A DNA stretch of 64,000 nucleotides, taken from positions 8,468,501-8,532,500 of the forward strand of contig NC_092580.1 of assembly GCF_037975245.1 (NCBI RefSeq), read 5' to 3'. The DNA comes from Apostichopus japonicus (lineage: Eukaryota > Echinodermata > Holothuroidea > Aspidochirotida > Stichopodidae). A program made the position numbers and the translations under genes. The notes below the pieces were generated by a model. That model did no database searches, had not been told where the DNA came from, and saw nothing but the letters and a program-made list of their open reading frames with translations. Positions 4,316-56,133 of the stretch are shown one piece after another (position 1 is the stretch's first letter; each line of letters begins with the position of its first letter).

Positions 4316-4456
4316 AGGACAGACAACATGAAGGCTTTAATTTTAGTAGGTGGATATGGAACAAGGTTGAGACCTTTAACCCTAAGTGCTCCGAAACCTC
4401 TGGTAGAATTCTGTAATAAACCAATGCTGCTCCATCAAGTCGAGGCTCTTGCCCAG
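4316..4456 (+). CDS. GMPPB: GMPPB exon 1 (5'UTR part 4316-4327, coding from 4328)
   Basis: A polypyrimidine tract and AG at 4314-4315 precede the ATG by 12 nt, so an upstream non-coding exon probably exists; I could not place it. The coding part gives residues 1-43 with the GTP-binding signature. The donor is GTAAAT at 4457. Confidence 0.9.
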
Positions 4457-7400
4457 GTAAATATTCTTTAATTATCTTAACAATAACATATCACAGTGCT
4501 GATGTTACTGTCCAATATCGCCAACTCCACCCTGACCCAATGTTTCATAGCAAAACAATAGCTTTGAAGGTTTTCATTTCCAAGTCTGTTCCTCACTTTA
4601 GTATGGATACTGTCAGAAGATATACAGTAGGAGAAAATGTGTGCTATCTATGTAGAAGATGGCTTGGGCAGAGAGAAGTGCATTCAACTAACATTGATGG
4701 CACACCACACTTCTCAAAAGCCTTCTTCCACCAGAAGCCTTGAAGCATAGCCTTGAAGATATTGTTGAGAGGGTCACATGCGTGCATTGTTTATAAACAT
4801 TGACTTGTGAACAGAGAAGTCAATATATGAAAATTGGGACTTTAATAAAACAAGAAATCAAGGCTTGTGACAAAAGGAGCTCTACTAATGATGAAGCTGT
4901 GCATTGTGCACCCAGATTTAGTATATACACACAAAGAAGGCCTTAACTTGATAATTATTTAATTAAGATTGATATTTTGATCAATTAGCAATGCTTTACA
5001 AGTATAAAAATTGTATGGCAGTGAATATCATGTTTTTTGACAGCCAGATAAAACCGCAGATGAAAACCACACATGTCTAAAAGCTGGTGACTTCTGCTGA
5101 GACATTTTCATTTTCAAATATTTAATGTTCTCTGATATGATTTTTAAGGCACAAAATACATTTCAGAGAGGAATTCAATGTCACTGGAATGTACGTATTT
5201 GAAGCCACAGTGGGGGGGGGGGGGGGAGTCCAGTGGTTGGTCTTAGTGAAGACATAGTGGTCATATACCCAAACTTTGTGATGAGATCTGCAAACTGCTT
5301 GGATTGCCTACTTGATCAAGTTGGTGATGGAATGTTATTTCATGTTAGTATTGTATTCATCTTCACCACAATTAACCAGTGATTTAAATTATGAAGAAGG
5401 AAATATTGATTCAGTAAAAAAAATTGAAGTCAAAGATAGATTTACCAGGTATGACATCACAAAGTTTTGTGTAATGCAAAGTGAAGAAATTTCAAAATTG
5501 AATTATCTTAGAAATTGACATGCTATCACTATAGCAGTTGAACCAATGTCTATTTACTTGCTCTAGTTATGAATGTTATGAGGAGGACTGATGATGCCTG
5601 ACATTAGATATTAATACCATATTCATAAAAGATCACTTGCCTTTCTTCTGATTGGTATTTCCCTTTGTCTTCAGGTTGGAGTTAAAGAAATAGTTCTCGC
5701 GGTGAGCTACAGAGCCGAACAGCTGGAGAAAGAATTGAAAGCTCATGAAAAGAAGGTACATTTGCAAAACTTTAATGTGACAATAGTTTACTCTTCTTTC
5801 ACCCATCTCCACACATTAAAATGCATCTTCCAAATTCAATGTCTTAGGAAGTCCAAACCATTCTTCTTTGTTGATTGTTTCCATGGAGTAGTGGAGTGGC
5901 AAGAAAGTTTGATACATGGTTTGGCAATAAAAAGTTTGTATTCCAATAAGAATAGAGGTGTGCCACTTACTTTGTGAGTAATTTGCTAAATCTATGGCAG
6001 TTTGTTAAGTATAGTGATGATCACATATTTACTGTAGGCTAGCATTGTCTCATGTTTGTATGTTACCTTGAGTAAAGCAGAATGCATCAGACATTTAAAC
6101 AGTCTACTGTGAGTAAAGTTGATGGCAGCAGATAATTAAACAGACACAGTGAACTACTGTTCATCTGTGTGCAGTGAACTGCTGAGAGCTTTCACATCAC
6201 AATGAGATATGTAGGCTCTACAGGTATATCTTACAACAAACTAATCATATGCTATGCTCTGGTTCACTTTAACAGACAAGTAATGTTGCATGAAACTTTT
6301 CACTCTATTTGAATGTTTCAATATAAGCTTTTATGGTTTCTTCTTCTTTCTTGCTAGCTTGGAATAAAAATCACCATGTCACATGAAGAGGAGCCTTTAG
6401 GAACTGGTAAGAAGCCTATAGATTTAATGTTAAGAGGCTGATAATTGACTGACATAATACTGTATGTAGGTGTCACATAAAGAGGAGCCTTTAGGAACTG
6501 GTAAGAAGCCTATAGATTTAATGTTAAGAGGCTGATAATTGACTGACATAATACTGTATGCAGGTGTCACATAAAGAGGAGCCTTTAGGAACTGGTAAGA
6601 AGCCTATAGATTTAATGTTAAGAGGCTGATAATTGACTGACATAATACTGTATGTAGGTGTCACATGAAGAGGAGCCTTTAGGAACTGGTAAGAAGCCTA
6701 TAGATTTAATGTTAAGAGGCTGATAATTGACTGACATAATACTGTATGTAGGTGTCACATAAAGAGGAGCCTTTAGGAACTGGTAAGAAGCCTATAGATT
6801 TAATGTTAAGAGGCTGATAATTGACTGACATAATACTGTATGTAGGTGTCACATAAAGAGGAACCTTTAGGAACTGGTAAGAAGCCTATAGATTTAATGT
6901 TAAGAGGCTGATAATTGACTGACATAATACTGTATGTAGGTGTCACATGAAGAGGAGCCTTTAGGAACTGGTAAGAAGCCTATAGATTTAATGTTAAGAG
7001 GCTGGTACTTAATTGACATAATACTGTTTGTAGCTTGGTATTAAAATCACCATGTCACATGAAGAGGAGCCTTTAGGGACTGGTAAGAAGCCTATAGATT
7101 TAATGTTAAGAGGCTGGTACTTAATTGACATAATACTGTTTGTAGCTTGGTGTTAAAATCACCATGTCACATGAAGAGGAGCCTTTAGGGACTGGTAAGA
7201 AGCCTATAGATTTAATGTTAAGAGGCTGATAATTGACTGACATAATACTGTATGTAGGTGTCACATAAAGAGGAGCCTTTAGGGACTGGTAAGAAGTCTA
7301 TAGATTTAATGTTAAGAGGCTGGTAATTAATTGACATAATACTGTTTGTAGCTTAGTGTTAAAATCACCATGTCACATGAAGAGGAACCTTTAGGGACTG

Positions 7401-10400
7401 GTAAGAAGCCTATAGATTTAATGTTAAGAGGCTGGTAATTGATTGACATAATACTGCTTTTAGCTTGGTGTTAAAATCACCATGTCACATGAAGAGGCAC
7501 CTTTAGGGACAGCTAATGAGCTAGGAGATAAAGTGCAGGATCTGTTGATAATTGACAATATGATAGCTAGCTGTCTTGTCACATGAATATGAACTTTATG
7601 GACAGGTTAAAAGCCAATAGATTCAATGCCAGGATAGTAAGCCACTTGTTACTTCTCCATAATTATATTCAAATTTAAATGAACCTGACAAAGAAAACCT
7701 TGTCTTTCTCAACCACCTACTGTACCTTCTTTGAATAATTCATCACAGGTAATTGGAAGAAGAAGCTAATATTGTCTACTGTAGGTTCACGGCAGCAATA
7801 GAGAATTCATAATAATAGTGAGAACCAATGTGTCCTATTATATTACTCTCATAGTGAGGGTTTACATCATCTGTCCAGTAACATGACATTTGCTGACATC
7901 AGTTGGGGTACATACATTAATATGTTCAATAACATTTGAACATTATTCACTCTAACACATTTCAGAGTGTCTTTTCTTTCTTTCTGTGCAGCTGGTCCTT
8001 TGGCTTTGGCCAAGGGCATCCTGTCAGCAGATAATGAGCCATTCTTTGTTCTAAACAGTGACATAAGCTGCGAGTTTCCATTCCAAGAGATGTTGGACTT
8101 CCACAAAAACCATGGCAAGGAGGGCACCATTGTGGTCAGTATTCTGATCTAGATATTTTGAGCAAACCCTGTTTTTGTGACTCGTATTTTTCATCAATGA
8201 AATGGGGAGCTTTTTTATTGAAATAAATGTTAAAGGATGACCTTTGGTATAGATCAAGTGCAGGAATGTCACAGGCCAAAAATAACAGAAAAGCTTTAGT
8301 ACACAGTATGTTGCTATAATATCTGTTTTGATTGCAAGGTGCTCATCATTAAAAATGGGGAATGTCTGGCATTCTGTTGTACGGCCAATCAGTGATATCA
8401 GCTGGTCATTTCTGGCCCAACTGCATTTATCAGTCCTTTGTTGTATTTATTCTCATTGCATTGTCAAAATATGTGTATTGAACCTCATGTCGACGAGAAA
8501 ATACACAATGGTGTTTAACTTGTGCATTTGCGCTGGTTGTGACCTGTCTCATGGAAGTCATTCTTGTTGGTCTAAGTTAATTTGAATCAGCATTCTGATG
8601 TGGCTGGCTGAAGCAGTGCCTTGTAATATAACACAGGTACCAAAGTAGTTAAGCATTTTGAATAATGTTAGGGCTAATGTAGAAAGTCATTAGAGAATTA
8701 TAGGTTTTAAAAAAAATTGGATATTATGCTAACTGGAGCAATGAAGTTTTTGTTGTGGTATATATCAAGAAGCTAAATAATCATATTTTGTCATTTATTG
8801 GTTATAATGTTGAAGGTTCAGTATTAAACTTTGCAATCGTTATAATGTGTGTTTGCACATATGTGTGTGTATTTCACAGTGCATTTATTAATGTGACATA
8901 GATCTCTCAGCCAATAATAACATATCTTAAAGGGATTGCAAGCTCAAAATTGATAACAGAAAATTTCCTTTTACTCATACAATATATGTGTCTACTGTAA
9001 ATTTCACATAGGATTTTAATAAATTCTATACTTGTAAACCCTTCCCAGTGAATTACATAGTTGATGCTTTGTCAACATGATAACTGATTCCTGAGACCTT
9101 TCTCTATATGTTGGGTGCAATAGTCAATGTATGGCTTACCACACTATGAATATGTTTAGGCATTACTAAACATGTTTGTTTTCGGGTTACTAATATTTGA
9201 ATATAAAACTACTGTGTCATGAACGAGTTAGCAAAGAGTCTTATGAGGTATATTACCAGCAATGAGAAGTAATAGAATCAAGCTGAAGTTGCGGGCCCCT
9301 CCTTCTACCAGAAGGGAGAGGATCAAAAACATTGATAGGTGTATTACATTAAACCTTTTAACCACATTGGATGCAAAATGTTTCTTTGCTACCACATTGA
9401 ATGCAATATATTTTATTCCCTAATATCACAATATGTTCATCATTGAATAAAATATGGTAATCCTTAACTACCACATTGAAAATTAAGTATATTTCCTTAA
9501 TACCACATTGAATACATTATACTTTCTTAAATATCACATTGAAACTATTATATGTTTATCATTGAATAGAATATGTTAATCCTTTAATATGACATTAGAT
9601 ATTCCTTAATAACACATTACAATATGATCATCCTCATTAACACATTGAATACAGCTTATGGAAGACTTGTAGATATCAAGAAATTAATGTTTTAATATCT
9701 AATCTTTATTTATCTTTATATTGACAGGTCACAAAGGTCGAAGAACCCTCCAAATACGGTGTAGTTGTTTATGATGATACTGGTAGAATTGAAAGATTTG
9801 TGGAAAAACCTTCCGTTTTTGTTTCAAACAAGATAAATGCCGGCATGTACATCTTTAGTCCAGCCATCCTTGACAGAATTGAGGTGAGTTGACTCCTGAA
9901 GTTATTCATCAATAGCAAAGGATCAGCTAAAAATAGGGGCTATAATATCTCTTTCTGTTTTTACTTCATAGTTGAGACCAACATCAATTGAGAAAGAAGT
10001 CTTTCCTTTTATGGCAAATTCTGGTCAGTTGTATGCCATGGAACTTTCAGGTAGAGTTATTTTGGATTTTTATCACACTCTATTAATCTTTTGACAATGA
10101 AAAGCTTTTTAATTATCAGTTGAATGCTTCTGTTCCGATGATATTTGTAATTTTCAGGCACATATGACCAAAGTTTATATGACAATGCATACAACTTATA
10201 GAGTGTCATGTTCATGATTACATCATTCAACCACATGCCTCAAATTATATGTATACAGCTAACAGATCCTGATGCCCCTTTATGTCAGGCATTCAGTGAC
10301 ATGACTCAAGTGATATATACCTAGGTTACAAGTCCTGATGCCCCTTTATTGCAGGCATTCAGTGAAATGCCTCAGTTTATATATACCTAGCTTACAAATC

Positions 10401-13400
10401 TTGATGCCCCTATATTTCAGGGATTTAGTGCCATGCCTCAAGTTATATATACACCTAGTTGATAGAGCATGCTACCCTTTTATTTAATGCATTCATTGAC
10501 ATGCCTCAAGTTGTATACACCTAGCTTACAGATCATGATACCCCTTATTTCAGGCATCTAGTGACATGCCTCAAGTGATATATATCTAGGTTACAAGTCC
10601 TGATACCCCTTTATTGCAGGCTTTCAGTGACATGCCTCATGTTATATATAACTAGCTTGCAGATCTTAATGCCCCTATATTTCAGGGATTCAGTGTCATG
10701 CCTCAAGTTATATACACCTAGTAGATAGAGCATGCTGCCCTTTTATTTAATGCATTCATTGACATGCCTCCAGTGATATATAGGTAGCTTATTGATTCTC
10801 ATGCCCCTCTTATACCTGACAAATCCTAGATTACAAACTGTGATTCTTCCTCCTCATCATTACTGGCCTAATATACAACATGTAAATCTCACAAGAATAT
10901 CATCATTTGTACATGTCCTGCTGTCAACACATCGGAGATGTCTAGAAGTGCATTAACAATAGTCTGGGATATATTCCTCTGTTAACAACTTTCAATGCTC
11001 TTCATGTGCAAAATGGACATTTGCACTGAAACGTTATTTTTCAATTTTATAGAATATATGTAGTATTTCCTACTCAATTCTTACTAATTCTGAAGTCCCA
11101 GAAAGACTCAAATTGTGATTTCACACTTTTCTCTTTTGTTGAGGTAAGTTTGTAGTAATCGTGAATGTTTCTGATGTACATGGAGTTTGCATTGCTTAGA
11201 TGTATGATTTTATGATTTGCTTTTCAGGATTTTGGATGGATGTTGGTCAGCCAAAGGACTTTCTGACTGGTATGTGTATGTACCTAACTAATCAAAAACA
11301 AAGGTCTCCAGAGAGATTGTACAATGGACAGGGAGTGCATGGCAATGTACTTGTGGTAAGTCCCTATGGCTTCAACTAGCCAATTATCAAATACAGAAAG
11401 TGCTATTGATGAAAATACTTTGTTGAATACTACTATTACTATCTTTTTGATTCCTTGCTGAAGGAATCTATACGATGGTGATTGCATATGTCTGTGTGTA
11501 TGTGTGTATATGTGTGTGTGGTTATGTGATGCCCTGGCTCGTAAATACAATGACTCACCAGGAGTACAATGCATAAACTTCAAAGTTAGTAAGTAGATTC
11601 CATTGGTAAGTTCTTGGCCCATTTTTAATTGAGGAAAGTCATTTGTGTTTCAACACGAGGCAAAAACTTGAAAACACTGTAAACAAGCTCACTGAGAAAT
11701 TCTAGCTTTGATGAATCTCGTACTTGGTATATAGGTTCCCTTCAGTAAGTTCATGCCTGCTTTCGTTACTGGGCAAGGTCATTTGAGGTTATTAAATGTT
11801 GAAGTCTGAAATCTTTGTAAACATGATAACTCTAAAAGTAGAGTTTGGGTGAACCTCATAGTTAGAAAGATGGTGTCCCACTGCGACTTGGTTGTAGTTT
11901 GCTTTTGGTAAACATAGTTGAGTCAACTTCAGCTCAGTTGAAGTTGTGACATTACTGGTACACTACGGGTTAAATGCGTAATTTTCACAACGCCATATTC
12001 TGTGGATGTTTTTGCATTAACTTTTTCATCTGGAAACCGCAAAGATGATTTCACTTACAAAATTGGCAATCAAGAGCTGAGTCCAATAATTGATACATGT
12101 GAGTTGTGCTTTGGAAGTGTATGCCTGAAGGTATTACCTGACTTGCCATTATACATAGCCACTGCTTGTTCTAAAGAAACCAAGCATGTGTGCACTCTCC
12201 TTGCAGATAACAACAATACTATAATTTATATACTGTTCATTCAAGGTTGACCGCTAATGTTATATGGTATACAGATAACTCATAACCAATCTATGTTCAA
12301 AGCAACACTTTCATCTCTTGGGGAACTATTGGAATATACTGTAGTATTGCCAGAATTTTAAACAATACAGTACGTCAAGTCATTCATTAATCAACACAAA
12401 CAAAGGTATGAAATAAACCCTTTATGTACAGAGTTGTGTTTGTAATTCTTCATCATTTCTTGCAAGTAGTCTAGAAGAACTTGTTAGAACACAAATACTC
12501 AGTGCAAATAGTTTCTTGTGACAGTTTGAAAATCATAGGAATGTTATGACCAATCGATAAATTTAAATCTGGGTTTTCAAATGAAAACCGATAGCTTTAT
12601 GACATTTAGGTAAATGTTGAAATACTGTAAGTATAGTAAAGAAATGTCCCACTGGCGCAATATTCTGTGAAGATACTGACTTCTGCTTCAAATGCTTCAT
12701 TCCATGGAACTTCAATGAAGCTAAGTTGAAAACACCAGTTAAGTCAGAAAATTAATCTACAGTTGCCTAACCATCAAATAGGCCTATATTCAGAGGCAAA
12801 CATACAGGGGGGGGGGGGGGGGGGTAGAGGTCTCACCCCAGTGAAAATCAATAGTTGGTCTCAAATTGATGGTAAGTTGGTCTCATTTTGAATTGGTGCC
12901 ATGGTCATTGTGGTCTGAATGTAAGAATAATAAAAGAAAAGTATATAACATTTATATATATTCGGCTGAAACACTTACAGGGGCTTCCCCTTCAAGCTCC
13001 CAAAGGAACTTTTTAGTACATTCTGCTGGAAGATTTGAAATTTGAATCTATTGCGGTCATTTGCACCATGGAACAAAACAGTATTCAAATCTGTGGCGGT
13101 CAGTTACACCATGGAAACGAAGAGTATTCAATCTGTTCATTCAGGTGTACCATGGAACCAAACAGTATTTGAATCTTTTTGTGGTCAGTTGCACCATGGA
13201 ACCAAACAGTATTTTGCTCATTTTGTGATTGATATGGGGGAGGGGTATAAGGGGAGGGGATGCCCCCTTCCCTTTGAGATATTTTTGAACAATTGAAGAT
13301 CCTTGGATGCTATCTGGTGCAATGTTTTGCCAGTTTCATCATTATCATATGATATTGTATTATCAGCAGATTTTGTTTCCTGTTTGAATTCTTTTACATG

Positions 13401-16400
13401 TTCTTTTACATATTATATTGGAAAGACAAACACAGTGCTCTTTTACAATTGTTCCAGTAGGATGATTCTTGTTTATTGTCCATTGTCTGGACTTTAATAC
13501 TTTTGACGAACTTAACTGATGGACAATATCAACTTTCATATTTTGTAAGACAGCCAGATGTGCAGTGGCCTAAAAGACAAATGCTGTTATTGCAGTGTAT
13601 TAGCAGTGAAATAATTATTAATAGGAGGCGTGTATCGGTACGATTGCTAGCTTAGCTTCATAACATGCTGTTCGTGCAAAAACTTAGGACGAATCATAGA
13701 AAGGATGAGAAGGAATGTTGTCGACGTCGTTGTGCATACGGTGCGTAACACTCCATCGAGTGCGGTTAGGTAGGCAATATGTATTTTATTACGCAGTGGC
13801 ACACTCTCGGCTTGTTAATGGCTATATGCTAAATTTAGCTAATTGCATCTGCCAAACTAAGTAAGTAGCTGAATCAGTAGGCCTGAATGTTACAACGATT
13901 ATAATCAAGTTAACTTAGCTGACAAGTATTCAAGATCAAAAGAGCACTGACAAAATACCATGCTAAAAAAACAACAGTTTTCCTTTTGTCGACACTGAAA
14001 GGGGGGAGCAGCTGCTGCCCCCCTCCCTACTCCCCCTGGCTACGTCCCTGGTACATAGTAGATTTGAAACATATCTTGAACAGTCAGTGAGGAGATGAAA
14101 TCTTTCTTCAAGAGCTTATTTAATTTCTCTTGCCTTACTTATACTTCCTATAGGATCCTTCTGCCAAGATAGGTAAGAATTGTCGCATTGGACCAAACGT
14201 TGTGATTGGACCAGATGTAGTTGTGGAAGATGGTGTCTGCATCAAGAGAAGTACAATACTGAGAGGGACGACTATTAAATCCCATTCTTGGATCGAATCA
14301 TCAATAATAGGTTGGAGATGTCAGATTGGCCAATGGGTGAGTTTATTGCTTCTACAGTACTCAGCATGATTTAAAAAATGTATCTCGAGTTAGACAGTGG
14401 TTTGGGTGAGTTTAATAGAATTGCTGATAGATTGCTCAGTTTGGTTTTAATGATATACGTTGAGTTAGCCAGTGTGTGCATTAGTAGACTTAAAATGATT
14501 GGTTGGGTTTGGCCTTTTATTCCTATACATGACTTATTACTACTGTTTTCACCATGTTTGAAAATTATAGTCGCCTCTCAAACATAGATCGTGCTAAAGG
14601 TGAATTTCTGACTTGATTTCAACCATTTATTGTTGCTGTTATTGGCTACATATATATATATAGGATTTAACTTGTTTAGCTTTCAGCCTAAGGTAGGAAA
14701 TACCGTCATACGTCTCTATGTTGTGTCATTCCATAAGTGAGATTTGAAAGTTATTGCATCACATAGAATATTGGTCTGTGTGGCTGCATAATTACCACAT
14801 TGTAAAAGAGATGCTACATGCATATTCATCAGAATGCATGAACAGATTAAATAATTAGCATGTTAAGTCAAGTATGACAAGTGCAGGTCTGGATTCAAAT
14901 GTGGATCTTATTAAGAAAGTATATTAACTGGGATTTATTCATGTGTGATTCTTTAAATAACTAGATTTTCCTTGTAAGAAGAAGTAGTTAGGTATGATTT
15001 CACATCCTATACAGTTTGTAATGTCTCAATTACACCATGTGATCTTACATTGCAATTACATAACCTCAAAATGGAAACTGAGACTGCTTTGACTTCAGTT
15101 GATTTAAATGTAAGGAAATTGAAAGAGCTACTGTTTAATGATTGACATTTGTCAAAGTACTTTAGGGAGCTCTTCTATGATAACAGCCTGATATGACAAC
15201 TAATAAAAGCTCTTGATTGTTAAGATTTATCAGTGATATATCAAACCATTCACATTTCCTGAATGATTAATATGTATGATATAGTAGTGTGCAGTGAAAA
15301 CATAAGAAACATGAGAAACTTCTAAGCTTGGTTATGAGGGAGTAATATTGAATTTATACTTGTGAATGACAAATACTGACCCAAGAGTGGATCTGGAGGT
15401 CAAGATGCAGATTAATTCTGAGGTGTCAAGTTTTCTCTCTTGAAAAAGTTAACTGTACAATTCACCAGGTGGTTCCAAGTGGGGGGGGGGGGGGGGGTAT
15501 AAACCAATGAATACACAGACAGGTGTTGGTTGGTCATCGCCAGAGTGTAACTGTCTCCTGTATGTACTCAATACTCAATTTAGCAAACAAGTCTTGTACA
15601 TTTGGAAGCTCATATCCCTGGTTTTCAATCAGATTAGTTTCTTTTTTCTAGTCCCCACAGACCCTAACAGATCTTGCTGCCTTAGGTTCATATTTATTGT
15701 AGGAGACGCCCATTCACTCAACGTAACAGCATTAATGATATCTGCCTCGATTAGTCTATTAAAACTCTTGTTCTACTCGGCCAACGATGGAATACGGAAC
15801 TGCCCTACTCTTTTGTTACACCTGATTTGCATTTGGTTTCAGTTTTAGGGAAGCCGCAAACCACTTGATACCTGAATCTTTGTCTGAGAAGAGTTTACTA
15901 TGCTTCTGTAGTAGCTCACAAAAACCGTGTGGATATTTAGGTTGGGGAGTGTGAAGAACCATACTAGCAGTATTAGGTTTACTACAGGCAGAAGTAGCAT
16001 TCTTGGTACTATGACTATTCACATTTGTTGGCTTAGGGTTCAGACAATATTTGGTTTCAATCTAACTTAATCTGGCTAAGCAAATCTTTACCCAAACAAG
16101 GGCGGGCATTTTACCTTGTACAACAATAATATCAGCAATTTGGGTGGGGCCTGCTTTAAACTTAACAGGAACACTAATGTAGCTTAATGTAGAAATTGAT
16201 CATGTAAGGTGATATGTTAGAACCTCACTGTGGTTGACATTGTAAAGTCCATAGCCTTGATTCTGGTCTTCTTCTTGAACACTGTTGAAATACAAAGCCT
16301 TGATTCTGGTCTTCTACTTGAACCCTGTAAAGTCCATAGCCTTGATTCTGGTCTTTTTGAACACTGTTGAAGTACAAAGCCTTGATTGTGGTCTTCTACT

Positions 16401-18677
16401 TGAACACTGTTAAAGTCCATATCCTTGATTCTGGTCTTCTTGAACACTGTTGAAGTACAAAGCCTTGATTCTGGTCTTCTACTTGAACACTGTTAAAGTC
16501 CATCGCCTTGATTCTGGTCTTCTTGAACACTGTTGAAGTACAAAGCCATGATTCTGGTCTTCTTGAACACTGCTGAAGTACAAAGCCTTGATTCTGGTCT
16601 TCTTGAACACTGTTGAAGTACAAAGCCTTGATTCTGGTCTTCTACTTGAACCCTGTAAAGTCCATAGCCTTGATTCTGGTCTTTTTTAACACTGTTGAAG
16701 TACAAAGCCTTGATTCTGGTCTTGTTCTTGAACACTGTTGAAGTACAAAGCCTTGATTCTGGTCTTGTCTTGAACACTGTTGAAGTACAAAGCCTTGATT
16801 CTGGTCTTCTTGAACACTGTTGAAGTACAAAGCCTTGATTCTGGTCTTCTACTTGAACCCTGTAAAGTCCATAGCCTTGATTCTGGTCTTTTTGAACACT
16901 GTTGAAGTACAAAGCCTTGATTCTGGTCTTGTTCTTGAACACTGTTGAAGTACAAAGCCTTGATTCTGGTCTTGTTCTTGAACACTGTTGAAGTACAAAG
17001 CCTTGATTGTGGTCTTCTTGAACACTGTTAAAGTCCATAGCCTTGATTCTGGTCTTCTTGAACACTGTTGAAGTACAAAGCCTTGATTCTGGTCTTGTTC
17101 TTTAACACTGTTGAAGTACAAAGCCTTGATTCTGGTCTTCTTGAACACTGTTAAAGTCCATAGCCTTGATTCTGGTCTTCTTGAACACTGTTGAAGTACA
17201 AAGCCTTGATTCTGGTCTTCTACTTCCAGGTTACTCAACCTGGGGTCCGCGGACCCCTAGGGGGTCCGTGAAATTTATTTGGGGGTCCGTGAGGGCAAAG
17301 AGGTCCGCAGGGGGTCCGTGAAAAAATAAGGGTCCGTGAAAAAAATAAGGGTCCGCGAAAGCTGAAGAGGTTCGTGAAAAATGGAATGAGAGATATAGTC
17401 GAAGGAAGAAGTATGTATGCCTCTAGAAATCTAGGCTAGGCTAGCCGTCAATATGTCGGACCCTGATGATCAGACCGTATCGTCAGTAGTCGATAAATGT
17501 TGAATCGTGCGTTCCCCGATGAAAACAAGTTATATAGTTCCTCATTGGTATACATTCGGTGAAGTATGGATAACATGCCACCCGAGTGTTGTGTACAACT
17601 TAACTGCACACTATACATCCTAATATGCAGAGCAATAACTATGATGAACCACTGTTAAAGTCCATAGCCTTGATTCTGGTCTTCTTGAACACTGTTAAAG
17701 TCCATATCCTTGATTCTGGTTTTCTTCTTGAACACTGTTGAGGAGTCCTTTCTACTTACATTTATGACACATAACATCATCATATGGACAATCTGCATGC
17801 TTGTGTTCACCACCACAACCTCTGCACTTGTAACGGAATGTTCCACCACTTTCAGATAGTTTCGAGCGAAAATGTGACTTTGCTTTATAGAAAGCATTAT
17901 TGGCATGTACGAGAGATGGGTTAAGGTAATCTTTGGTAGCGATAGAAGCTATTTTGTCTGCTTAGGAGCTTGGTCATTGCATCTTCCAGTGTTAGATCAG
18001 CCCTTGAAAACAACTGCGTTTGAGTTTTGGACATTTTGGCATGTAATCCAGACACAAGATGGTCCCGAAGTGCTTCTTGTAGAAAGTTCCTCACTTTACA
18101 ATGAGTGCTAATATTTTTAAGTCTAACTATGAAGGATGATACAGAATCATTCTCACTTCGTGTAGCAGTCCAGAATTTATGTCTTTCAGCAATGACAATT
18201 GGACACGGAGAATAATGATCTTGCAAGAGTTTCTTCAGATCTACGTATTTCTTACAACTCAGTAGGTCAGGGCTACACAGGTTTTTTAATAGTTTATAGG
18301 TGTTGGCTCCCACGACAGCTACAGTAGTAAGAAACTTGTATGTTTGTCAGCTGCTATGCCATTATAGCTGCAATAAACGCATCGGTCACAATAATCTTCA
18401 AACTATTCCAACTTTTCTTCGAATACTCCAATGTTTCCGAAAACTATTGAGTTTGCATAAATGTTCTCTTTTAACCCAATGCTTGAATTCCTTCTAAGAT
18501 GCGCATCTTGATGTTCCTAAAAGTTGTATATTATTTCTTTGATAGGTACGGATGGAGAATGTCTGTGTTCTTGGAGAAGATGTTATAGTGAAGGATGAGC
18601 TGTATATAAATGGAGGAAGAATCCTGCCCCACAAATCCATTGGAACATCTGTTACAGAACCCCAGATCATCATGTGA
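4328..18677 (+). CDS. GMPPB: Mannose-1-phosphate guanylyltransferase beta, nine coding exons
   Basis: This enzyme makes GDP-mannose from mannose-1-phosphate and GTP in the cytosol, feeding N-glycan, O-mannose and GPI synthesis. Coding exons are 4328-4456, 5675-5755, 6358-6406, 7992-8134, 9728-9883, 9972-10050, 11228-11355, 14154-14336 and 18546-18677. They sum to 1080 nt, giving 359 residues plus TGA, against about 360 for animal GMPPB. All introns are GT-AG and all phases match. Residues 8-18 hold the nucleotidyltransferase signature [15 protein letters not shown] at 107-110 gives the metal-binding Asp, and FVEKP follows in exon 5. The C-terminal third has hexapeptide repeats of a left-handed beta helix ([13 protein letters not shown]). 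The protein ends in IIM, as family members do. The chosen ATG starts directly with MKALILVGG, the conserved N-terminus. Exon 3 is the start of a tandem array and intron 8 holds a Gypsy remnant. Confidence 0.97.
5212..5227. repeat. Poly-G tract
   Basis: A run of about 16 G in GMPPB intron 1. Similar G runs lie at 12807-12823, 15481-15497 and 63967-63983. Confidence 0.95.
5675..5755 (+). CDS. GMPPB: GMPPB exon 2
   Basis: 81 nt, phase 0 to 0, residues 44-70, including ILAVSY-like [15 protein letters not shown]. The acceptor is TCTTCAG and the donor is GTACAT. Confidence 0.95.
6358..6406 (+). CDS. GMPPB: GMPPB exon 3, founder copy of the tandem exon array
   Basis: 49 nt, phase 0 to 1, encoding [16 protein letters not shown]. 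The acceptor is TTGCTAG and the donor is GTAAGA. It has the best polypyrimidine tract (TTCTTCTTTCTTGCTAG) of all copies. Eleven further full or shortened copies follow to about 7512. Confidence 0.95.
6358..7512 (+). repeat. Tandem array of GMPPB exon 3 plus intron sequence, 12 units
   Basis: Full 49-nt exon copies begin at 6358, 7034, 7146, 7352 and 7464. Shortened 31-nt versions lie with their TGTCACAT at 6471, 6565, 6659, 6753, 6847, 6941 and 7259. Shortened units have a period of about 94 bp and full units about 112 bp. Each unit carries exon end, GTAAGA donor, intron start and an AG acceptor. Only the last copy (7464-7512) has lost its donor (CAGCTAAT). The 7034 copy encodes the same peptide as 6358 with silent changes. 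Copy 7146 has G-V instead of G-I, and 7352 has S-V. Confidence 0.93.
7992..8134 (+). CDS. GMPPB: GMPPB exon 4
   Basis: 143 nt, phase 1 to 0. It carries LNSD with the metal-binding Asp110. The donor is GTCAGT, a weaker form. Confidence 0.95.
9340..9660. repeat. Degenerate AT-rich tandem repeat in GMPPB intron 4
   Basis: TACCACATTGAATACA-like units alternate with stretches such as ATATGTTCATCATTGAATA. Spacing is irregular, so this looks like an old minisatellite. Confidence 0.6.
9728..9883 (+). CDS. GMPPB: GMPPB exon 5
   Basis: 156 nt, phase 0 to 0, with [13 protein letters not shown], the FVEKP motif and [10 protein letters not shown], all typical of sugar-phosphate nucleotidyltransferases. 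Confidence 0.96.
9972..10050 (+). CDS. GMPPB: GMPPB exon 6
   Basis: 79 nt, phase 0 to 1, encoding [15 protein letters not shown] and the start of GFWMD. The intron before it is only 88 bp. The donor is GTAGAG. Confidence 0.95.
10225..10815. repeat. Minisatellite of about 75-80 bp in GMPPB intron 6
   Basis: About eight diverged units share TAGCTTACAGATCCTGATG, CCCCTTTAT, CAGGCATTCAGTGACATG and CCTCAAGTTATATA. Confidence 0.85.
11228..11355 (+). CDS. GMPPB: GMPPB exon 7
   Basis: 128 nt, phase 1 to 0, encoding [15 protein letters not shown], the link between catalytic domain and beta helix. The donor is GTAAGT. Confidence 0.95.
13052..13215. repeat. Short tandem repeat, about four units of 45-50 bp
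   Basis: Units share GTCAGTTGCACCATGGAACC and AACAGTATT. It borders a dispersed mobile-element copy to the right. Confidence 0.75.
13223..14050. mobile_element. Dispersed element ending in GGCTACGTCCCTG, intron 7 copy
   Basis: Sequence closely matches bases 1-381, from the G-rich GGGGGAGGGGT start to the CTGGCTACGTCCCTG end. This copy has two extra segments, at about 13419-13500 and about 13617-13970, absent from the other. It codes for nothing recognisable. The end motif is shared with elements at 1809-2153 and 45980-46646. Confidence 0.7.
14154..14336 (+). CDS. GMPPB: GMPPB exon 8
   Basis: 183 nt, phase 0 to 0, encoding most of the hexapeptide-repeat beta helix, ending in the GWRCQIGQW segment. 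The donor is GTGAGT. Confidence 0.96.
16240..17230. repeat. Minisatellite of about 41-44 bp within the Gypsy remnant, about 24 units
   Basis: Units contain GCCTTGATTCTGGTCTTCTT then GAACACTGTT and either AAAGTCCATA or GAAGTACAAA. About 24 copies lie here and two more at 17650-17715, split off by another insertion. On the - strand the units stay largely open, in frames reading [13 protein letters not shown] or [13 protein letters not shown]. Confidence 0.92.
17227..17651. mobile_element. Possible hAT-like non-autonomous element
   Basis: It starts CAGGTTACTCAACCTGGGGT with GGTCCGCGGACCCC, a form seen at ends of hAT-type elements, and ends ATGAACCACTG. The ends are only roughly inverted and I saw no clean 8-bp duplication. 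It splits the minisatellite, with array units on both sides. The GGGGTCCGTG motif recurs several times inside its first 150 bp. Confidence 0.45.
17740..17910 (-). pseudogene. Gag zinc-knuckle remnant
   Basis: The - strand frame gives [13 protein letters not shown] followed by CHKCK and an in-frame stop. This is the Cys/His nucleic-acid-binding knuckle pair expected at the end of Gag, with the second knuckle interrupted. The next codons lead into the minisatellite unit [10 protein letters not shown]. Confidence 0.7.
17921..18313 (-). pseudogene. Gag-like fragment of the Gypsy element
   Basis: An open frame of 130 residues resembles metazoan Gypsy Gag: [18 protein letters not shown] at the start, then a stretch with [23 protein letters not shown] and LTLEDA. 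The arrangement matches the conserved Gag core (C-F-L, LRD-x-LV-x-GL). It continues, in another frame, into the zinc knuckle at 17740-17910. It is part of a decayed element, not a host gene. Confidence 0.75.
18546..18677 (+). CDS. GMPPB: GMPPB exon 9 and stop
   Basis: 132 nt including TGA. It encodes [24 protein letters not shown] and the conserved C-terminus. It lies 4.2 kb from exon 8 because of retroelement material in intron 8. Confidence 0.96.
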
Positions 18678-21120: not shown

Positions 21121-22105
21121 ATCTCAACATTTCTATTAGAATCACATAGCTTGCAACTCAACCTTTCTGTTAGAGTCACATAGCTCACAACTCAATCTTT
21201 CTGTTAGAGTCACATAGCTAGCAACTCAATCATTCTGTTAGAGTCACATAGCTCGCAACTCAACCTTTCTGTTAGAGTCACATAGCTAGCAACTCAACCT
21301 TTCTGTTAGAGTCACATAGCTCACAACCCAACCTTTCTGTTAGAGTCACATAGCTCGCAACTCAACCTTTCTGTTAGAGTCACATAGCTAGCAACTCAAC
21401 CTTTCTGTTAGAGTCACATAGCTTGCAACTCAACCTTTCTGTTAGAGTCACATAGCTTGCAACTCAACATTTCTGTTAGAGTCACATAGCTAGCAACTCA
21501 ACCTTTCTGTTAGAGTCACTTAGCTCACAACTCAACCTTTCTGTTAGAGTCACATAGCTCACAACTCAACCTTTCTGTTAGAGTCACATAGCTCACAACT
21601 CAACCTTTCTGTTAGGGTCACATAGCTAGCAACTCGATCATTCTGTTAGAGTCACATAGCTCGCAACTCAACCTTTCTGTTAGAGTCACATAGCTAGCAA
21701 CTCAACCTTTCTATTGGAGTCACATATCTCACAACTCAACCTTTCTGTTAGAGTCACAGAGCTCACAACTCAACCTTTCTGTTAGAGTCACATAGCTAGC
21801 AACTCAATCATTCTGTTAGTCACATAGCTCGCAACTCAACCCTTCTGTTAGAGTCACATAGCTAGCAACTCAACCTTTCTGTTAGTCACATAGCTAGCAA
21901 CTCAACCTTCCTGTTAGAGTCACATAGCTTGCAACTCAACCTTTCTCTTAAAGTCACATAGCTTGCAACTCAACCTTCCTGTTAGAGTCACATAGCTTGC
22001 AACTAAACCTTTCTGTTAGAGTCACATAGCTAGCAACTCAACCTTTCTGTTAGAGTTACATAGCTTGCAACTCAACCTTCCTGTTAGAGTCACATTGCTT
22101 GCAAC
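21120..22105. repeat. Minisatellite, 34-bp unit, about 28 copies
   Basis: The unit is GTCACATAGCTAGCAACTCA followed by ACCTTTCTGTTAGA. Variation is concentrated at AGCTAGC, AGCTCGC, AGCTTGC and AGCTCAC. Two units lack AGA and are 4-5 bp shorter. Confidence 0.95.
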
Positions 22106-23479: not shown

Positions 23480-24525
23480 TAGGTATTGATATAATGGTAG
23501 TACAAGCTTGTCTGCAGCTAATATTACCTAAGACCAGAAGGTAATCATCTGCTGAAGCTGATATAATGGTAGTACAAGCTTGTCTGCAGCTAATATTACC
23601 TACGACCAGAAGGTAATCACCTGTTGAAGCTGATATAATGGTAACTAGTACAAGCTTGTCTGCAGCTAATATTACCTAAGACCAGAAGGAATCACCTGCT
23701 GAAGCTGATATAATGGTAACTAGTACAAGCTTGTCTGCAGCTAATATTACCTAAGACCAGAGGTAATCACCTGCTGAAGCTGATATAATGGTGGTACAAG
23801 CTTGTCTGCAGCTAATATTACCTAAGACCAGAGGTAATCACCTGCTGAAGCTGATATAATGGTGGTACAAGCTTGTCTGCAGCTAATATTACCTAAGACC
23901 AGAAGGAATCACCTGCTGAAGCTGATATAATGGTAACTAGTACAAGCTTGTCTGCAGCTAATATTACCTAAGACCAGAGGTAATCACCTGCTGAAGCTGA
24001 TATAATGGTGGTACAAGCTTGTCTGCAGCTAATATTACCTAAGACCAGAGGTAATCACCTGCTGAAGCTGATATAATGGTAGTACAAGCTTGTCTGCAGC
24101 TAATATTACCTAAGACCAGAAGGTAATCATCTGCTGAAGCTGATATAATGGTAGTACAAGCTTGTCTGCAGCTAATATTACCTACGACCAGAAGGTAATC
24201 ACCTGCTGAAGCTGATATAATGGTAACTAGTACAAGCTTGTCTGCAGCTAATATTACCTAAGACCAGAAGGAATCACCTGCTGAAGCTGATATAATGGTG
24301 GTACAAGCTTGTCTGCAGCTAATATTACCTAAGACCAGAAGGTAATCACCTGCTGAAGCTGATATAATGGTAGTACAAGCTTGTCTGCAGCTAATATTAC
24401 CTAAAACCAGAAGGTAATCACCTGCTGCAGCTGATATAATGGTGGTACAAGCTTGTCTGCAGCTAATATTACCTAAGACCAGAAGGTAATCACCTGCTGA
24501 AGCTGATATAATGGTGGTAGCATTA
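23480..24525. repeat. Minisatellite, about 70-76 bp unit, about 14 copies
   Basis: The unit contains ACAAGCTTGTCTGCAGCTAA, TATTACCTAAGACCAGAAGG and CTGCTGAAGCTGATATAATG. Unit types differ by presence of AACTAGTAC or GGTAGTAC, and of AGAAGG or AGAGG, suggesting higher-order arrangement. Confidence 0.95.
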
Positions 24526-25304: not shown

Positions 25305-25805
25305 AGTTGGTCAGGACTCATCTTGAGTATGCTATTTAAACTTGGAATCCAGGGCTCATCTTGAGTATGCTATTTAGACTTGGAATCCAGGGCTCATCTT
25401 GAGTATGCTATTTAGATTGGAATCCAGGGCTCATCTGAGTATGCTATTTAAACTTGGAATCCAGGGCTCATCTTGAGTATGCTATTTAGACTTGGAATCC
25501 AGGGCTCATCTGAGTATGCTATTTAAACTTGGAATCCAGGGCTCATCTTGAGTGTGCTATTTAGACTTGGAATCCAGAGCTTATCTTGAGTATGCTATTT
25601 CGACTTGGAATCCAGAGTTTATCTTAAGTATGCTATTTAAACTTGGAATCCAGAGTTTATCTTGAGCATGCTATTTAAACTTGGAATCCAGAGTTTATCT
25701 TGAGTATGCTATTTCGACTTGGAATCCAGGGCTCATCTTGAGTATGCTATTTAAACTTGGAATCCAGGGCTCATCTTGAGTATGCTATTTTGACTTGGAA
25801 TCCTG
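25305..25805. repeat. Minisatellite, 37-38 bp unit, about 13 copies
   Basis: The unit contains CTCATCTTGAGTATGCTATT and AACTTGGAATCCAGGG. Confidence 0.93.
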
Positions 25806-26539: not shown

Positions 26540-27150
26540 TAACACACTGTGTGCTTAGTGACATTACAACACTGTGTGCTTAATGAAATAACACACTATA
26601 TGCTTGATGACATTAAACAGTGTTTGATGGCATTACACACTGTGTTCTTGATGATATTACACACTATGCTTAATGGCATTACAGTGTTTGATGACATTAC
26701 ACACTGTGTGCTTGATGACATTACACACTGTGTGCATGGTTACATTACACACTGTGTGCTTGATGACATTACACACTATGTGCATGGTTACATAACACAC
26801 TGTGTGCTAGGTGACATTACACACTGTGTTCTTGATGATATTACACACTATGCTTAATGGCATTACAGTGTTTGATGACATTACACACTGTGTGCTTGAT
26901 GACATTTCACAGTGTTTGATGACATTACACACTGTGTGCTTGATGACTTTACACACTGTGTGCATGGTTACATAACACACTGTGTGCTAGGTGACATTAC
27001 ACACTGTGTGCTTGTTGACATACACTATGCGCATGGTTACATTACACACTGTGTGCTTAGTGACATTACACACTGTGTGCATGGTTACATTACACACTGT
27101 GTGCCTGATGACATTACACACTGTGTGCTTGATGACACAGTGTATGTTTG
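26540..27150. repeat. Minisatellite, 24-bp unit, about 25 copies
   Basis: The unit is ACATTACACACTGTGTGCTT plus GATG, with GCATGGTT variants. Open frames across it (DDITHCVL) are a by-product of a unit length divisible by three. Confidence 0.94.
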
Positions 27151-28956: not shown

Positions 28957-29542
28957 TCATTTCTGGTTAGCATTTTTATTCGCTGCCTTTTTCAATTTCT
29001 TCATGTTCTCCCACTTGATCAAAGAAGTGTCCATTAATTCTTTCTCAATATTCGGTGGCAAATCCCAGGCAGAATTGTTTGTATTGGTGTCCAAAAAGAA
29101 TATCTGTCCTTGAGCATCGGGACCCTCGGTATCCCTGTGCATCATCCATCCTCGCACCAGATCAGACTCCCACATGTAGAGTCCACAAGAACATTTCTTT
29201 GATCTTTGTTCAAAGTAGTCATCAGCCTCTTTACACCTGGCTAAGACTGTGTCTAGATGGTCTCTCTCTTGAGGATCAGAATAGTAATGCTTGTTTGAAT
29301 TGTAGATGGGGTCTCGAGGTGTTGGCATGGGAGGTCTTTCTTCCACCACTTCTTTAGAGATATGTTTCCTCTCAATTGGATGGCTCAGGAGTAAGTGAGA
29401 GTTTTCATGTCCAGGAACCGACTTCTTGTGAAAGTGGTCCATGATTTTCTGTATGGAGTCAAAATGGTGAGAGCCGCCGACCCCATATTTGCCATCTGGG
29501 AGATGGGTGACCCGAAAGTGATAGATATGGGTTTTGTTATCT
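28957..29542 (-). CDS. SH2 gene last exon: rest of SH2, linker, WW-like module
   Basis: The longest coding exon seen (586 nt including TGA), phase 2 in, acceptor TTCCAG. It holds the remaining SH2 strands, a Pro-containing linker (VEERPPMPTPRDP), a Cys pair (KKCSCG) and the WW-like segment before a basic C-terminus. Confidence 0.8.
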
Positions 29543-31929
29543 CTGGAACGACACAAATGACACAGTAAACTGATATTGGGTGAAGATCAAGATGATGTAT
29601 GTGTTTAATACACAGATTATGACTAGCGTGACTCGACTCAATGCAAAGGTGAATAACATTACTTAGGAGGAAACAAAGTCTCAAGACAATGGACATAGAA
29701 TTATAAGTCCACTATAAGGAGGATTCTACCCCAGTGGCTGATAACAAACATCTTTACAAAAGAAGCCCCATTCAGCCTCAGGATCTGTGTCATGTACCCA
29801 GCTAATATGAAAACTATGCATGTAGAGACACTGGAATAAAGACAAGAGTTTACTTACACAACTGATATGGTCAGGGCATTGTTCTCACTGTTGCTATTTC
29901 TCAGGATGTATGCTCCCCTCTTATCCATGAATGGTCTGAACAGTCTCTCCACCTGTACCCAAAATGAGATAAACACCAACTGTATACAGTGCTGTATGTA
30001 GTACTTAGAACTTAAAAGTTGCACATCGTTTAACACATGAACTCCGTCATTTGAATTCATTTTTATCTTCATGATTTAAAATGCAACAGGTCTGTAACTA
30101 AGTTAGCCATCAACAATTCTTGATATTAAGAGCACCAACCTTGCAGTTGTTCATACTGCTGAATGACAGTTGAACATTTTGAGAAACGGTTGATATCGAA
30201 TTCTTGAACAACGCTAGTTGCCCACCATTCAAAGATTCTTTTGTCCAACTTTCATCTAAATTTAAAAACAAATGCAGCACAAGGATGCGAAAGGATTTCT
30301 TTGACCTCAACTGTAACCTGAGCAAGTCACATGACCCACTACTAGTGCGTCATAGATGCAAAGTGTGCTGAACTGTCATTGCACTCTGCATGTACAGTAG
30401 TAATTACAATAGTTTGACCCAAGATGTCATTTGACTTCAAATTCCTGCACAACTTCACTAGCCTAACACAGAGGGCAATCCATGGAGTTGCAGATCTCAT
30501 CACCGTCTAACTTTATAATTTTGCTAAAAGTATGCCATTTGTTCACACAGTTAGTTTGAACTTGCACAGACTTACAGGAGTTCCCCAACACACTTTTCTC
30601 AGAATTTCGGCCAAATTGACCTCTGACCTCAATTGACTTTTGTCCTAGATCCTAACCACCCAAAACCTGTCCTATTCTAAAATCTGCCTCATCCACCTCT
30701 AGATTCTCTACATATCCTCTGGTTTAATGCCTTTTTCCAACATGTTGACAAGCAGAAAATGGCTAACACCGATTTTCAGTTGTTTTTACCTGACATATGA
30801 CATCATAAATCATGCAGGCACGGGTTTTTTTGGTGATGAAACTACCTACTAAGTTTAAACTTTATCGGACTAATGGTCTTGTAGAAGTTTGCGACACTTT
30901 CTGGCTCACTCACTCACACACACATAGACATATCACGTTTCTGATGTGGGGTGAAGTAGTACGGTGAAGTAGTATAATATACATTACATACAGATGGAGA
31001 TGAGATAATATTAATATATTAGTTGAAGCATGACAAAGATACAGTATATTTGAACCAAAGTGATGACCCTCCCACACAGTGTTTGCATGAGATAATGTCC
31101 TCCTCATAAAACCAAAAACAATTAAGTAATTTGTGGTCTTTAATACTTGCGAAGAAGCAAGTTTAACTAAACTGAGAACCAGTGACACAAAAAAAGGGGT
31201 CTGTGTTGGGGGCATGACCCACTCCACCAATCATCAGTAGGAGACCACTTCTACGGGTGTATCCCTGCCCCCATTTCCAACTCACACAAAACATTTATAA
31301 GCAAAACCTTGCATTAAAGCCTACAGTAAATTACAGCGTACAGTGGGTACGCTCTGAATGCATCCTTTGATGTCTACTATTTTCTGGGGAGACCCCAATC
31401 CCCTACATAGGAACATAGGAGATGGCTTCAATGACAACATGGTAGCATACCCTAGCTGCCTTTATAATATCCTTGATTCATGAGACTCCCTCCCCATTCA
31501 TGAGACTACCTCCCCAGACCCCCATTCATGAGACCACCTCCCCAGACCCCCCATTCATATGAGACCACCTCTCCAGACCCCCATTCATGAGACCACCTCC
31601 CCAGACCCCCCATTCATATGAGACTACCTCCACAGACCCCCCATTCATATGACTTGGCTTCAATGTCTGGAGGGCAGCCCCACCTTCATAAAGTCCTTCA
31701 TTCGTCTAGAACCTTTATAGCATTATAGCATATTTTGAACTTTGTTTATTGTTATTTCATCATAATGTGAGTAAATTACTCATTGACTCTGTTACTGTTT
31801 ATATATATGGAAAGTGGAAAATAAACTTGAAACTTGAAACCACCACAAAAGTTGAACCCTTGTATAATACCTAAATCAGTCAAGCAAAATGCAGTTTAAA
31901 CATGCAAAACAAACCCTCTTCCTTTCCTA

Positions 31930-31961
<32 letters not shown>

Positions 31962-34900
31962 CCTATGTCCCATAGCTTGAGGGCTGTAGGGGCGGCATGA
32001 TGACACGACACAAGCTTTCCACAATTCACGATTGTCAGCTGTTCTTATGAGCTGGTTGAAGTCCATCCCAGTCCAGGTTTTTATGTTGCCAACCCAGGTT
32101 TTAACCGGCCTGCCTCTCCTTCATACCCCATCTGTCCCTCCTTGCAATATAGTGTTTGCCAGGCTGTTCTTCTGTCTAATTACATGACCAAACCACTGAA
32201 GTTTCCTTTTAAACCCCCCTGAAAGTAGGGGATCCTGTTCCCCTATGAAACCATTATTTCCATACTTGCTTGTTCGTGGTCTGCGAAGTGTAATGGAACT
32301 GGAGAAGTCTCCGGATACAGTTCATTTCAAAAGCATTTATTTGCTTTTCCATATATCCGCATTTAAAGTCCACGCTTCGCCCCCATACAGGAACACTGTT
32401 GTTACTAGTGCTCTCAGGAGACCCATTCTTGTTTTCATTGTGATGTTCTTATCCCTCCAGATGGGCTTCAGATTTGCCATTGAAGATGTTGTAACTGCGA
32501 TTATGATCTTAATCTCTTGCACTGACTTTGCATCATCCATGATTGTTGCCCCTAAATATTTGAACTGAGCCTCTGTTTCAAATTTTGACCTATAATATGT
32601 ACCGTTACTGCTTCGACAGAACCCATCTTCATGACCTTGATCTTCTCGGCATTGATTTCCATGCCAAGTTGCTTTACACTTCCTCTAGTATTCTTGTAAG
32701 GGTGGTAAGTTCCTCTGGTTTTCCTGCTAACTGCGGTCAATGTCATCTGCAAATCTTAGGTTGGTAATAGCTCTTCCCGCAACACTCACTGTTCCTTCAT
32801 ACCCATCAAAAGTTTCTAACATGATATATTCTAGGAATATATTGAACTATGTTGGTGATAACAGACATCACTCGGGGGTGGAACCAATCGTTGATTTCAT
32901 CTCCCATTAAGACAGCACTCTTGGATGCTTGATACAGGGCCATGATCGATTTACAATCCCCTTGCTAATATTAAACTTCCTTAGTATCTCACACAATCCA
33001 TCTTGCCAGACCCGGTCAAAAGCTTTCTTGAAGTCGATGAAGTTATGGAAAAGTGGTTTCTGGTCGGTACTGTATTTCTCATTCAGTAGCCTGAGATTCA
33101 AGATTTGCTCTACTGTGCTGCGTCCTTTCCTAAATCCTGCTTGTTCCTCTGCTATTATTCTTTCTGCTCATGGCTGTAGTCTATTTAGAATCACTCGTAA
33201 GAGTATCTTGCTTGGGTGACTGATCAGGCTGATGGTTTGGTAGTTGCTACAAGACTTAGGGTTACCTTTTTTTATAGAGTGGAATGATGACTGATTTTGT
33301 CCACAAAGATGGCCAAACTCCTCATGACCATTCTTCAATACAAAGTCTAGTATAGGCCTCAACTGTCCCCATTCTTCAGCATCTCTGCAGACACATTGTC
33401 AATTCCTGGAGACTTGCCATCTTTGAGGCTGTCAATAGCTTCTTCAACCTCTGACATATTAATAATTGGTAGGTCTTCTTCTTGTTCTGCATTTGCCATT
33501 CCCCTCCAGAAATCTAACAAGCTCTGATCTGCTGTCAGCTGATAGTTGTAGAGCTTCTCGCAGTATTCCTTCCATCTACTGGATATTGATCTTCTTTCCA
33601 TGAGGATGTTGCCATTTTTGTCTTCTACCACAGTTGTTTGTCCTGGCTTTGTTTCTTCTAGTTAGTCTTTTGATTGTCTGGAAAGCTGCTGCTGTGTTGT
33701 TGCAATTCATATTAGTGTTGATGGTGGAGCTGCACTGGTCTTGAATCCATTGCTCCATGGCTTCTTTGGTCACCTTCTTGATCTCTTTATTGATCTTGTT
33801 GTAGTTAGCATCGTCGACGTCACTTACATTGCGTTTCTTTCTTACTGTAGCTGTCTGTGTCTATCATCTAACACCTCATCTGTCATCCTCTTCTGCAGTG
33901 TCAATGAAATGCTTATTGAGCTCGTTGTTGAAACTCTCTATATCTGTGTGAGCTACTAACAATGGAGCAAATTTACCCCCCAATCTTTGCCTGGAACTGA
34001 CAAGCAATGTTTGGGTTTTTAAATTTTTCTAGATCAAACTTCTTTCTACAGTAGGTGATCTTTCTTTCTTTTCAGCTTCACTCTCATGGATATCATATCA
34101 AGTCAGTCACAATATATGATGAATGGTTGTCCCTCTGAATACAAAAACTTCAGCTTGTTCCTCAAACTTCACTCTGAAAACAGTAAAAGGCTAGTGTAGT
34201 TTAATAAACAATACAGTCACTACAGGCTGCTAAATTGTGAAATTCCCACCCTGAGTTGCAGTATTAGGGAAGTACCCAGTATGAAGACAAAATAAACACA
34301 ACAGATACTGAAAATATTTTCATATGCATTTTATGACTTGTAATCATAATCATGGGTGCTTTCCAATGGGATCCTAATACACTGTTATCAGACTGTGATC
34401 AGATACCATGTGAATGAAGCCCCAGTGGTTGCTTGCCAAATTAAACAAAGGGATATTTGGACAACAAGTCTGTGTTTGAATGACTGATATTTTGTCATTT
34501 TTCATTCTATTTGGCTGAAATTTAGTCAGTGGTTTGCGAGTTAGGGGTTTTGTTTTTCAGCTTTTTAGAATTCATGACCAGTATGCATTTTGGTGTGAAT
34601 AATAAAATGTCTTCCATCTTAATTTTCCCTTCATTTTTGGAAATAGTTTCACCCATGAGAGTCTTAATCTAGTAAAATATTTGTTAGTTTCCTATCTAGT
34701 TCGAAGTCATTCTCTATAAAAGGACTACTTTGCAGATTTGCAATTGGAACCTTTCCAGTTTGTGTGTAGAAAACGACATGTGAGAATGACCTATATTGTT
34801 GGAGCCAATTCCATTTCTGGTCTTTAATGTTTCTATGTGATAAGTCGATTGAAGACAAATTGCAGGCAGGGGTTTAGGCCGAAAAAGGCCCCTACAATGT

Positions 34901-53422: not shown

Positions 53423-53709
53423 CTGCCAAATGAAATCAACGATAAGTATTGATAGGATGAAGTATGTAATAATCCACAGTCGGGTCTTAACAACGATGGC
53501 GAGTTATAACGAAGTTGTGGAGTTGACAGATTGTACATATTGGAACTTAAGGAGAGAAAAAGGAATCATCTGTAAATATCTTTTAATATCAAAAGCGGCA
53601 TACCCATTTTAATCTCAAATTCCATCAAACAACGTAATATATACCGTAAATTACAAGATTCTATTTTGTTTTATTTCTGTGTTATTAATATAAACACATT
53701 GACGTATAC

Positions 53710-55917: not shown

Positions 55918-56133
55918 CTGAAAGAAATGAAATGTCCCATGTTGCTATGGCTACTTCTGATATTACCGGTAGCAGTTGACGAATGGAAGCACACTCCACT
56001 TCAAAGGCGAAGGGTAGGCATGTCACCTGATAATTGACGTGAGGGCGTATATGATCTCGGTGCAGATACCATGACCTGATGTTGAAAGGAGTATATGGGG
56101 TAGTAATATGGGGTATGTTGGTGATGTAACTCA

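Follow-up and report, generated by a model that had tools for sequence, protein, structure and literature searches.

The GMPPB locus and the array at its third exon

We analysed a 64,000-nucleotide stretch of the Apostichopus japonicus genome (NC_092580.1, positions 8,468,501 to 8,532,500 of the forward strand), referred to below as the window, in which coding exon 3 of the GMPPB gene is the first unit of a tandem array. When the nine GMPPB exons were joined, they gave a full-length protein of 359 residues with zero internal stops. The best solved chain for this protein was 7d72_K, a mannose-1-phosphate guanyltransferase beta that we take to be the human protein (E 1.2e-187, full length). The region corresponding to exon 3 in the next solved homologue, 8yre_D, reads LEIKITCSQETEPLGT, and the PLGTAG loop is presumably the nucleotide-binding loop of the enzyme superfamily to which GMPPB belongs. 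The introns of the gene are as short as 88 nt, and intron 3, into which the array extends, measures 1,585 nt. The features of the gene and of the array are as follows.

4328..18677, plus strand: GMPPB gene, nine coding exons, protein of 359 amino acids
4328-4456, 5675-5755, 6358-6406, 7992-8134, 9728-9883, plus strand: GMPPB coding exons 1 to 5
9972-10050, 11228-11355, 14154-14336, 18546-18677, plus strand: GMPPB coding exons 6 to 9
6358..6406, plus strand: exon 3, array unit 1; phase 0 to 1, polypyrimidine tract 0.94, donor GTAAGA
6377..7510, plus strand: minisatellite of 94- and 112-nt units, starting within exon 3 and running into intron 3 (repeat finding)
6470..6970, plus strand: units 2 to 7, 31-nt copies starting at 6470, 6564, 6658, 6752, 6846 and 6940; AG and GTAAGA each, weak acceptors
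7034..7082, plus strand: unit 8, full copy, identical peptide; weak acceptor, GTAAGA
7146..7194, plus strand: unit 9, full copy, I to V; weak acceptor, GTAAGA
7258..7288, plus strand: unit 10, 31-nt copy, E to K; weak acceptor, GTAAGA
7352..7400, plus strand: unit 11, full copy, G to S and I to V; weak acceptor, GTAAGA
7464..7512, plus strand: unit 12, full copy with I to V and E to A; CTAATG in place of the donor, and a heavily decayed spacer behind it at 7513-7575
7577..7628, plus strand: unit 13, a decayed copy at the array's 3' end (local alignment)

Repeat finding placed 12 copies in register at a spacing of 94 or 112 nt; the overlapping Tandem Repeats Finder rows span 6377-7510, and one row extends to 7628. 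A full unit consists of exon 3, its AG and 63 nt that resemble the start of intron 3. The complete 49-nt exon is present in five units (1, 8, 9, 11 and 12), while the other seven (units 2-7 and 10) hold a 31-nt form that is 18 nt shorter and therefore keeps the phase. An AG acceptor lies upstream of all 12 units, and GTAAGA follows 11 of them, unit 12 having CTAATG in its place. At the peptide level, the downstream full copy at 7034 is identical to exon 3, that at 7146 carries I to V, and that at 7352 carries G to S together with I to V; a fourth, at 7464, combines I to V with E to A and has no donor. In all seven short copies V replaces LGIKITM, and five of the seven also show E to K where 7d72_K and 8yre_D both have E. 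The initial annotation of the array, made from the sequence alone, had described twelve units of exon 3 or a shortened form, all with an AG and eleven with GTAAGA, and had listed full copies at 7034, 7146 and 7352 encoding the same peptide or one with one or two changes. This description was borne out, apart from the list of full copies, which left out the one at 7464.

Across units 1-11 the spacer hardly varies in its first half. Its second half occurs as two main types, one standing before every short copy and the other before every downstream full copy, an arrangement that would fit a single original deletion whose linked segment then spread. Units 2-7 are almost identical, and divergence is concentrated at the edge of the array, its most diverged parts being the last spacer, that of unit 12, and the decayed 13th unit. 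The latter begins at 7577 and could be aligned locally as far as 7628, with a score of 63 compared with a maximum of 38 in 300 shuffles. No older units were detected above shuffles in GMPPB introns 1, 2 and 4. Chance resemblance as an explanation of the array is excluded.

Copy number and assembly

A search of the genome with the array unit, covering 671,581,487 bases in 35 contigs with very common words skipped and some stretches read as N, returned 12 matches, all at the GMPPB locus on contig C20, and none elsewhere. In a protein search of the genome, all eight of the GMPPB exon matches listed fell at this locus, with exon 3 absent from them, and no second GMPPB gene was found among the matches listed. 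Since all eight lie at one locus, GMPPB appears to be single-copy. A search for NTP-transferases pointed to two further places, on contigs C2 and C23, the match on C2 being presumably GMPPA.

As a single assembly was analysed and tandem repeats are error-prone, the array might be thought an artefact of assembly, an outcome that the initial annotation had also allowed for. We regard this as extremely unlikely. The published A. japonicus assembly (671.60 Mb, 34 scaffolds, 23 chromosomes) is described in the available part of its report as based on PacBio HiFi and Hi-C data (PMC10344927). Furthermore, the array is 1.2 kb in length, its units are distinct from one another, and it has a single placement in the genome. 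Comparable arrays are documented in lancelets, as far as the accessible text of the two reports goes (PMC3087553, PMC3902484). The GMPPB array is a real, well-assembled whole-exon minisatellite.

Reading frame and splice signals

In order to follow the consequences of copy choice for the protein, we computed the reading frame for combinations of 0-4 of the 11 donor-bearing copies. Any one of these copies used alone kept the frame, giving 359 residues with a full copy or 353 with a short one. Premature stops were encountered in all 55 pairs, all 165 triples and all 330 quadruples, and also when exon 3 was skipped and no copy was included. For working transcripts, and within these combinations of up to four copies, the expectation that the copies can be used only one at a time is correct. 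Such behaviour is in keeping with the proposal that the full copies are mutually exclusive exons, one per transcript, with exclusivity enforced by the frame and by 63-nt spacers that are perhaps too short to splice. The spacers are indeed shorter than the shortest GMPPB intron, copies 1 and 8 are separated by silent changes only, and the exon of unit 12 has been kept beside a decayed spacer. Exclusive splicing is also stated, in the parts of the literature seen, to go often with tandem exon duplication (PMC6071210, PMC9013439).

The acceptors, however, argue against this proposal. We measured the pyrimidine fraction at −20 to −4 and used the eight acceptors of GMPPB itself as the control. All eight lay between 0.65 and 0.94, with copy 1 the highest at 0.94, whereas the downstream copies scored 0.47 (units 2-7 and 10), 0.53 (units 8, 9 and 11) and 0.59 (unit 12). 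As background, 879 AGs from about 4466 to 18500, exons and array included, gave a mean of 0.49 with a standard deviation of 0.13, and 6.6% of them reached at least 0.7. A genuine polypyrimidine tract is confined to copy 1, and copies 2-12 are close to random AGs. A docking and selector arrangement did not emerge either: neither intron 2 nor the part of intron 3 that follows the array paired with the two spacer types beyond the level of dinucleotide shuffles (p 0.21-0.95), and the folds of two units and of two spacers were ordinary when compared with shuffles. Peptide diversity among the full copies is almost zero, and the donor of unit 12 has been lost. Together with the absence of extra constraint on the exon core of units 1-11, described below, these results make mutually exclusive use very unlikely, and the set of interchangeable exons that had been offered as one alternative for this array is unsupported.

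The same signals bear on the idea that array copies are now and then spliced in by mistake and so lower GMPPB output, with array length tuning expression. Copies 2-11 do carry AG and GTAAGA along with branch-point-like motifs and, according to the computed frames, use of a short copy would yield a protein six residues shorter, while multiple inclusion would lead to premature stops. Nevertheless, their acceptors stand at the background pyrimidine level, and we consider such tuning hardly probable.

It seems to us highly probable, from the arrangement of the units and their acceptors, that the array is a minisatellite which grew out of GMPPB exon 3 and sits passively in intron 3. Slippage or unequal exchange would have multiplied the units, and the short 94-nt unit, now seven of the twelve, would have been derived from the full unit. 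Splicing would take copy 1, the sole copy with a polypyrimidine tract, so the eleven downstream copies are probably skipped, and copies 2-12 would leave with the 1,585-nt intron 3. Exchange of copy 1 with a full copy would often leave a working exon, since the peptides of the full copies are identical or almost so. The array would then be without a dedicated function.

Divergence of the exon copies and their spacers

Comparison of the exon copies with their spacers provided a further line of evidence. Across units 1-11, nucleotide diversity (pi) was 0.0461 in the 30-nt exon core, with 3/30 sites variable, and 0.0479 in the 63-nt spacer, with 9/63 variable (Fisher P 0.75). The suggestion in the initial annotation that a minisatellite had captured an exon is supported both by this equal divergence and by the weak downstream acceptors. 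Silent and replacement changes were counted by eye, the neutral expectation being 23-28% silent. When the changes separating copy 1 from the rest were removed, two silent and three replacement changes were left in the full copies (P 0.32-0.43), or three and four when the short copies were added (P 0.20-0.31); changes outside copy 1 are as expected in the absence of selection.

Several observations weigh against a passive array. The margin between used and unused acceptors is narrow, the weak real acceptors of exons 5 and 9 (E5 and E9) standing at 0.65 and unit 12 at 0.59. A motif resembling the branch-point consensus (CTGAC or TTGAC) occurs at −18 in 11/11 downstream copies. GTAAGA is kept in 10 of the 11 downstream copies, and the peptide of unit 8 is identical to that of exon 3. 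Within units 8-11, pi was lower in the exon core than in the spacer (0.033 compared with 0.066; 2/30 and 8/63 sites variable), a difference that is not significant (P 0.49). All full copies taken together showed five silent and three replacement changes (P 0.019-0.045 for the silent excess), and the three differences between copy 1 and copy 8 were all silent (P 0.012-0.022). Compared without gaps, the spacer of unit 12 agreed with the others at just 22-24 of 63 sites, and with unit 12 included the variable sites numbered 5/30 in the exon core compared with 43/63 in the spacer (Fisher P 5e-6), pi being 0.060 and 0.148, respectively.

Some of these points lend themselves to other explanations. 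The branch-point-like motif does not discriminate used from unused sites, since all of the downstream copies have it, while E3, E6 and E7, three of the gene's eight real acceptors, lack it in their last 45 nt. The three silent changes set copy 1 apart from every other full copy, and the silent excess can be attributed to selection acting on copy 1 as the putative working exon. In codons, copy 1 is distinguished from full copies 8, 9 and 11 by GGA/GGT (AGT in unit 11), by ATA/ATT or GTT, and by GGA/GGG. As for unit 12, its exon differs from that of unit 9 or unit 11 at 3/49 sites, and its spacer (7513-7575) is still related to the other spacers when aligned end to end with gaps to the spacers alone (P 0.004-0.008), although the same segment gave no match above shuffles to the full unit (P 0.35). 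For the contrast between this exon and its spacer we prefer a homogenising exchange tract that would have ended at the end of the exon: the unit has lost its donor, and the spacer immediately upstream belongs to the common type. It may also be that the exon was under selection before its donor was lost, which would look alike and would count against passivity.

A more far-reaching reading would have at least one downstream full copy (7034 or 7146) spliced into some transcripts as a silent spare, unit 12 being a once-working duplicate whose donor was later lost, and exchange repeatedly replacing the working exon. Such a scheme is unlikely in our estimation. If it were true, one exon of a core enzyme would be evolving in concert with its spares.

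Minisatellites in the surrounding genome

A passive minisatellite at exon 3 has to be viewed against the repeat content of the genome. Arrays with a period of at least 10, at least three copies and at least 100 bp were sought in a sample of twenty 5-kb pieces, of which one consisted entirely of N. The sample contained 13 arrays amounting to 15.2% of the 100 kb, the N piece included, with three long arrays making up most of the total. The whole 64-kb window held 12 arrays covering 6,604 bases, and arrays of at least three copies were found in four of the eight GMPPB introns (3, 6, 7 and 8). In so minisatellite-rich a genome, an occasional exon-engulfing array would be expected.

The further minisatellites in GMPPB introns 6, 7 and 8 have units of 66, 43 and 40 nt and lie at 10233-10813, 13040-13214, 16243-17221 and 17645-17739, the last with 2.3 copies. 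Just downstream of the gene are dense large minisatellites at 21123-22105, 23487-24519, 25312-25803 and 26542-27137, with 34-, 72-, 38- and 24-nt units, respectively. Elsewhere in the window, all on the minus strand, we noted a reverse transcriptase fragment at 32910-33167 (Pfam RVT_1, E 4.9e-9), around which minus-strand frames resemble by eye the rest of a retroelement; a protein kinase domain fragment at 52895-53503 (Pfam Pkinase, E 6e-11); an open frame of 305 amino acids at 55086-56000; and one of 208 amino acids at 28963-29586 that has by eye the look of a conserved gene. Neither open frame had a Pfam match at E 0.001. In the wider genome, COX1-like pieces occur at positions 14745-31219 of contig C29, separate from the mitochondrial contig C35; they represent either nuclear copies or another assembly of the mitochondrial genome. 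C35 itself has 16,099 bases, with a COX1 frame that is open under the echinoderm code and a run of tRNAs in the order typical of sea urchins and sea cucumbers.

Relation to known exon-associated arrays

The closest parallels that we found are the ‘mirages’ of amphioxus, minisatellites at exon boundaries that are reported, in the parts of the papers available, not to disturb splicing (PMC3087553, PMC3902484). In one of these papers, lancelet PGBD5 is described as having tandem repeats that lie across splice sites, and Adh and troponin C are cited (PMC3902484). The GMPPB array shares several features with a mirage: tandem units of minisatellite size within a gene, units that span exon boundaries and take in coding sequence with splice signals, AG and GT being found in many copies, and a homogenised interior with diverged edges. 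Undisturbed normal splicing would be a further likeness, and acceptor strength suggests it. The units described for the lancelet globin mirages, as given in the available text, cover one exon–intron boundary, whereas the full GMPPB units enclose an entire exon together with its two splice sites, and the GMPPB array is in an echinoderm. No mirage appears in the available part of the amphioxus huntingtin paper.

Arrays of mutually exclusive exons likewise consist of tandem same-phase copies with splice signals, and in GMPPB two, three or four inclusions break the frame. They differ from the present case in that the downstream GMPPB copies have weak acceptors, competing RNA pairing did not rise above shuffles, and coding constraint on the copies is at most putative. 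Ivanov and Pervouchine proposed, in the section of their paper available, that duplications including part of an intronic stem-loop give rise to competing structures and exclusive splicing (PMC6071210). Variable internal tandem repeats in human segmental duplications are described, again in partial text, as altering gene structure and as able to activate or create splice sites (PMC2812944); they resemble the GMPPB array in being minisatellite expansions in genes, but are found in recent paralogues, whereas GMPPB appears to be single-copy. Among the literature matches listed, mostly titles and abstracts, we found no echinoderm case of an exon-boundary minisatellite, and the search returned neither a report of GMPPB with A. 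japonicus nor one combining tandem exon duplication, a minisatellite and mutual exclusivity.

Overall, the array adds an echinoderm example, and one that encloses an entire exon, to the exon-boundary minisatellites that the literature found describes from lancelets. Its eleven downstream exon-like copies, ten of them with good donors but weak acceptors, also make it a natural setting for asking why the first copy would be the one chosen in splicing. Should arrays of this kind prove common in this minisatellite-rich genome, new exons and introns would have material to arise from, and annotation would be prone to error.

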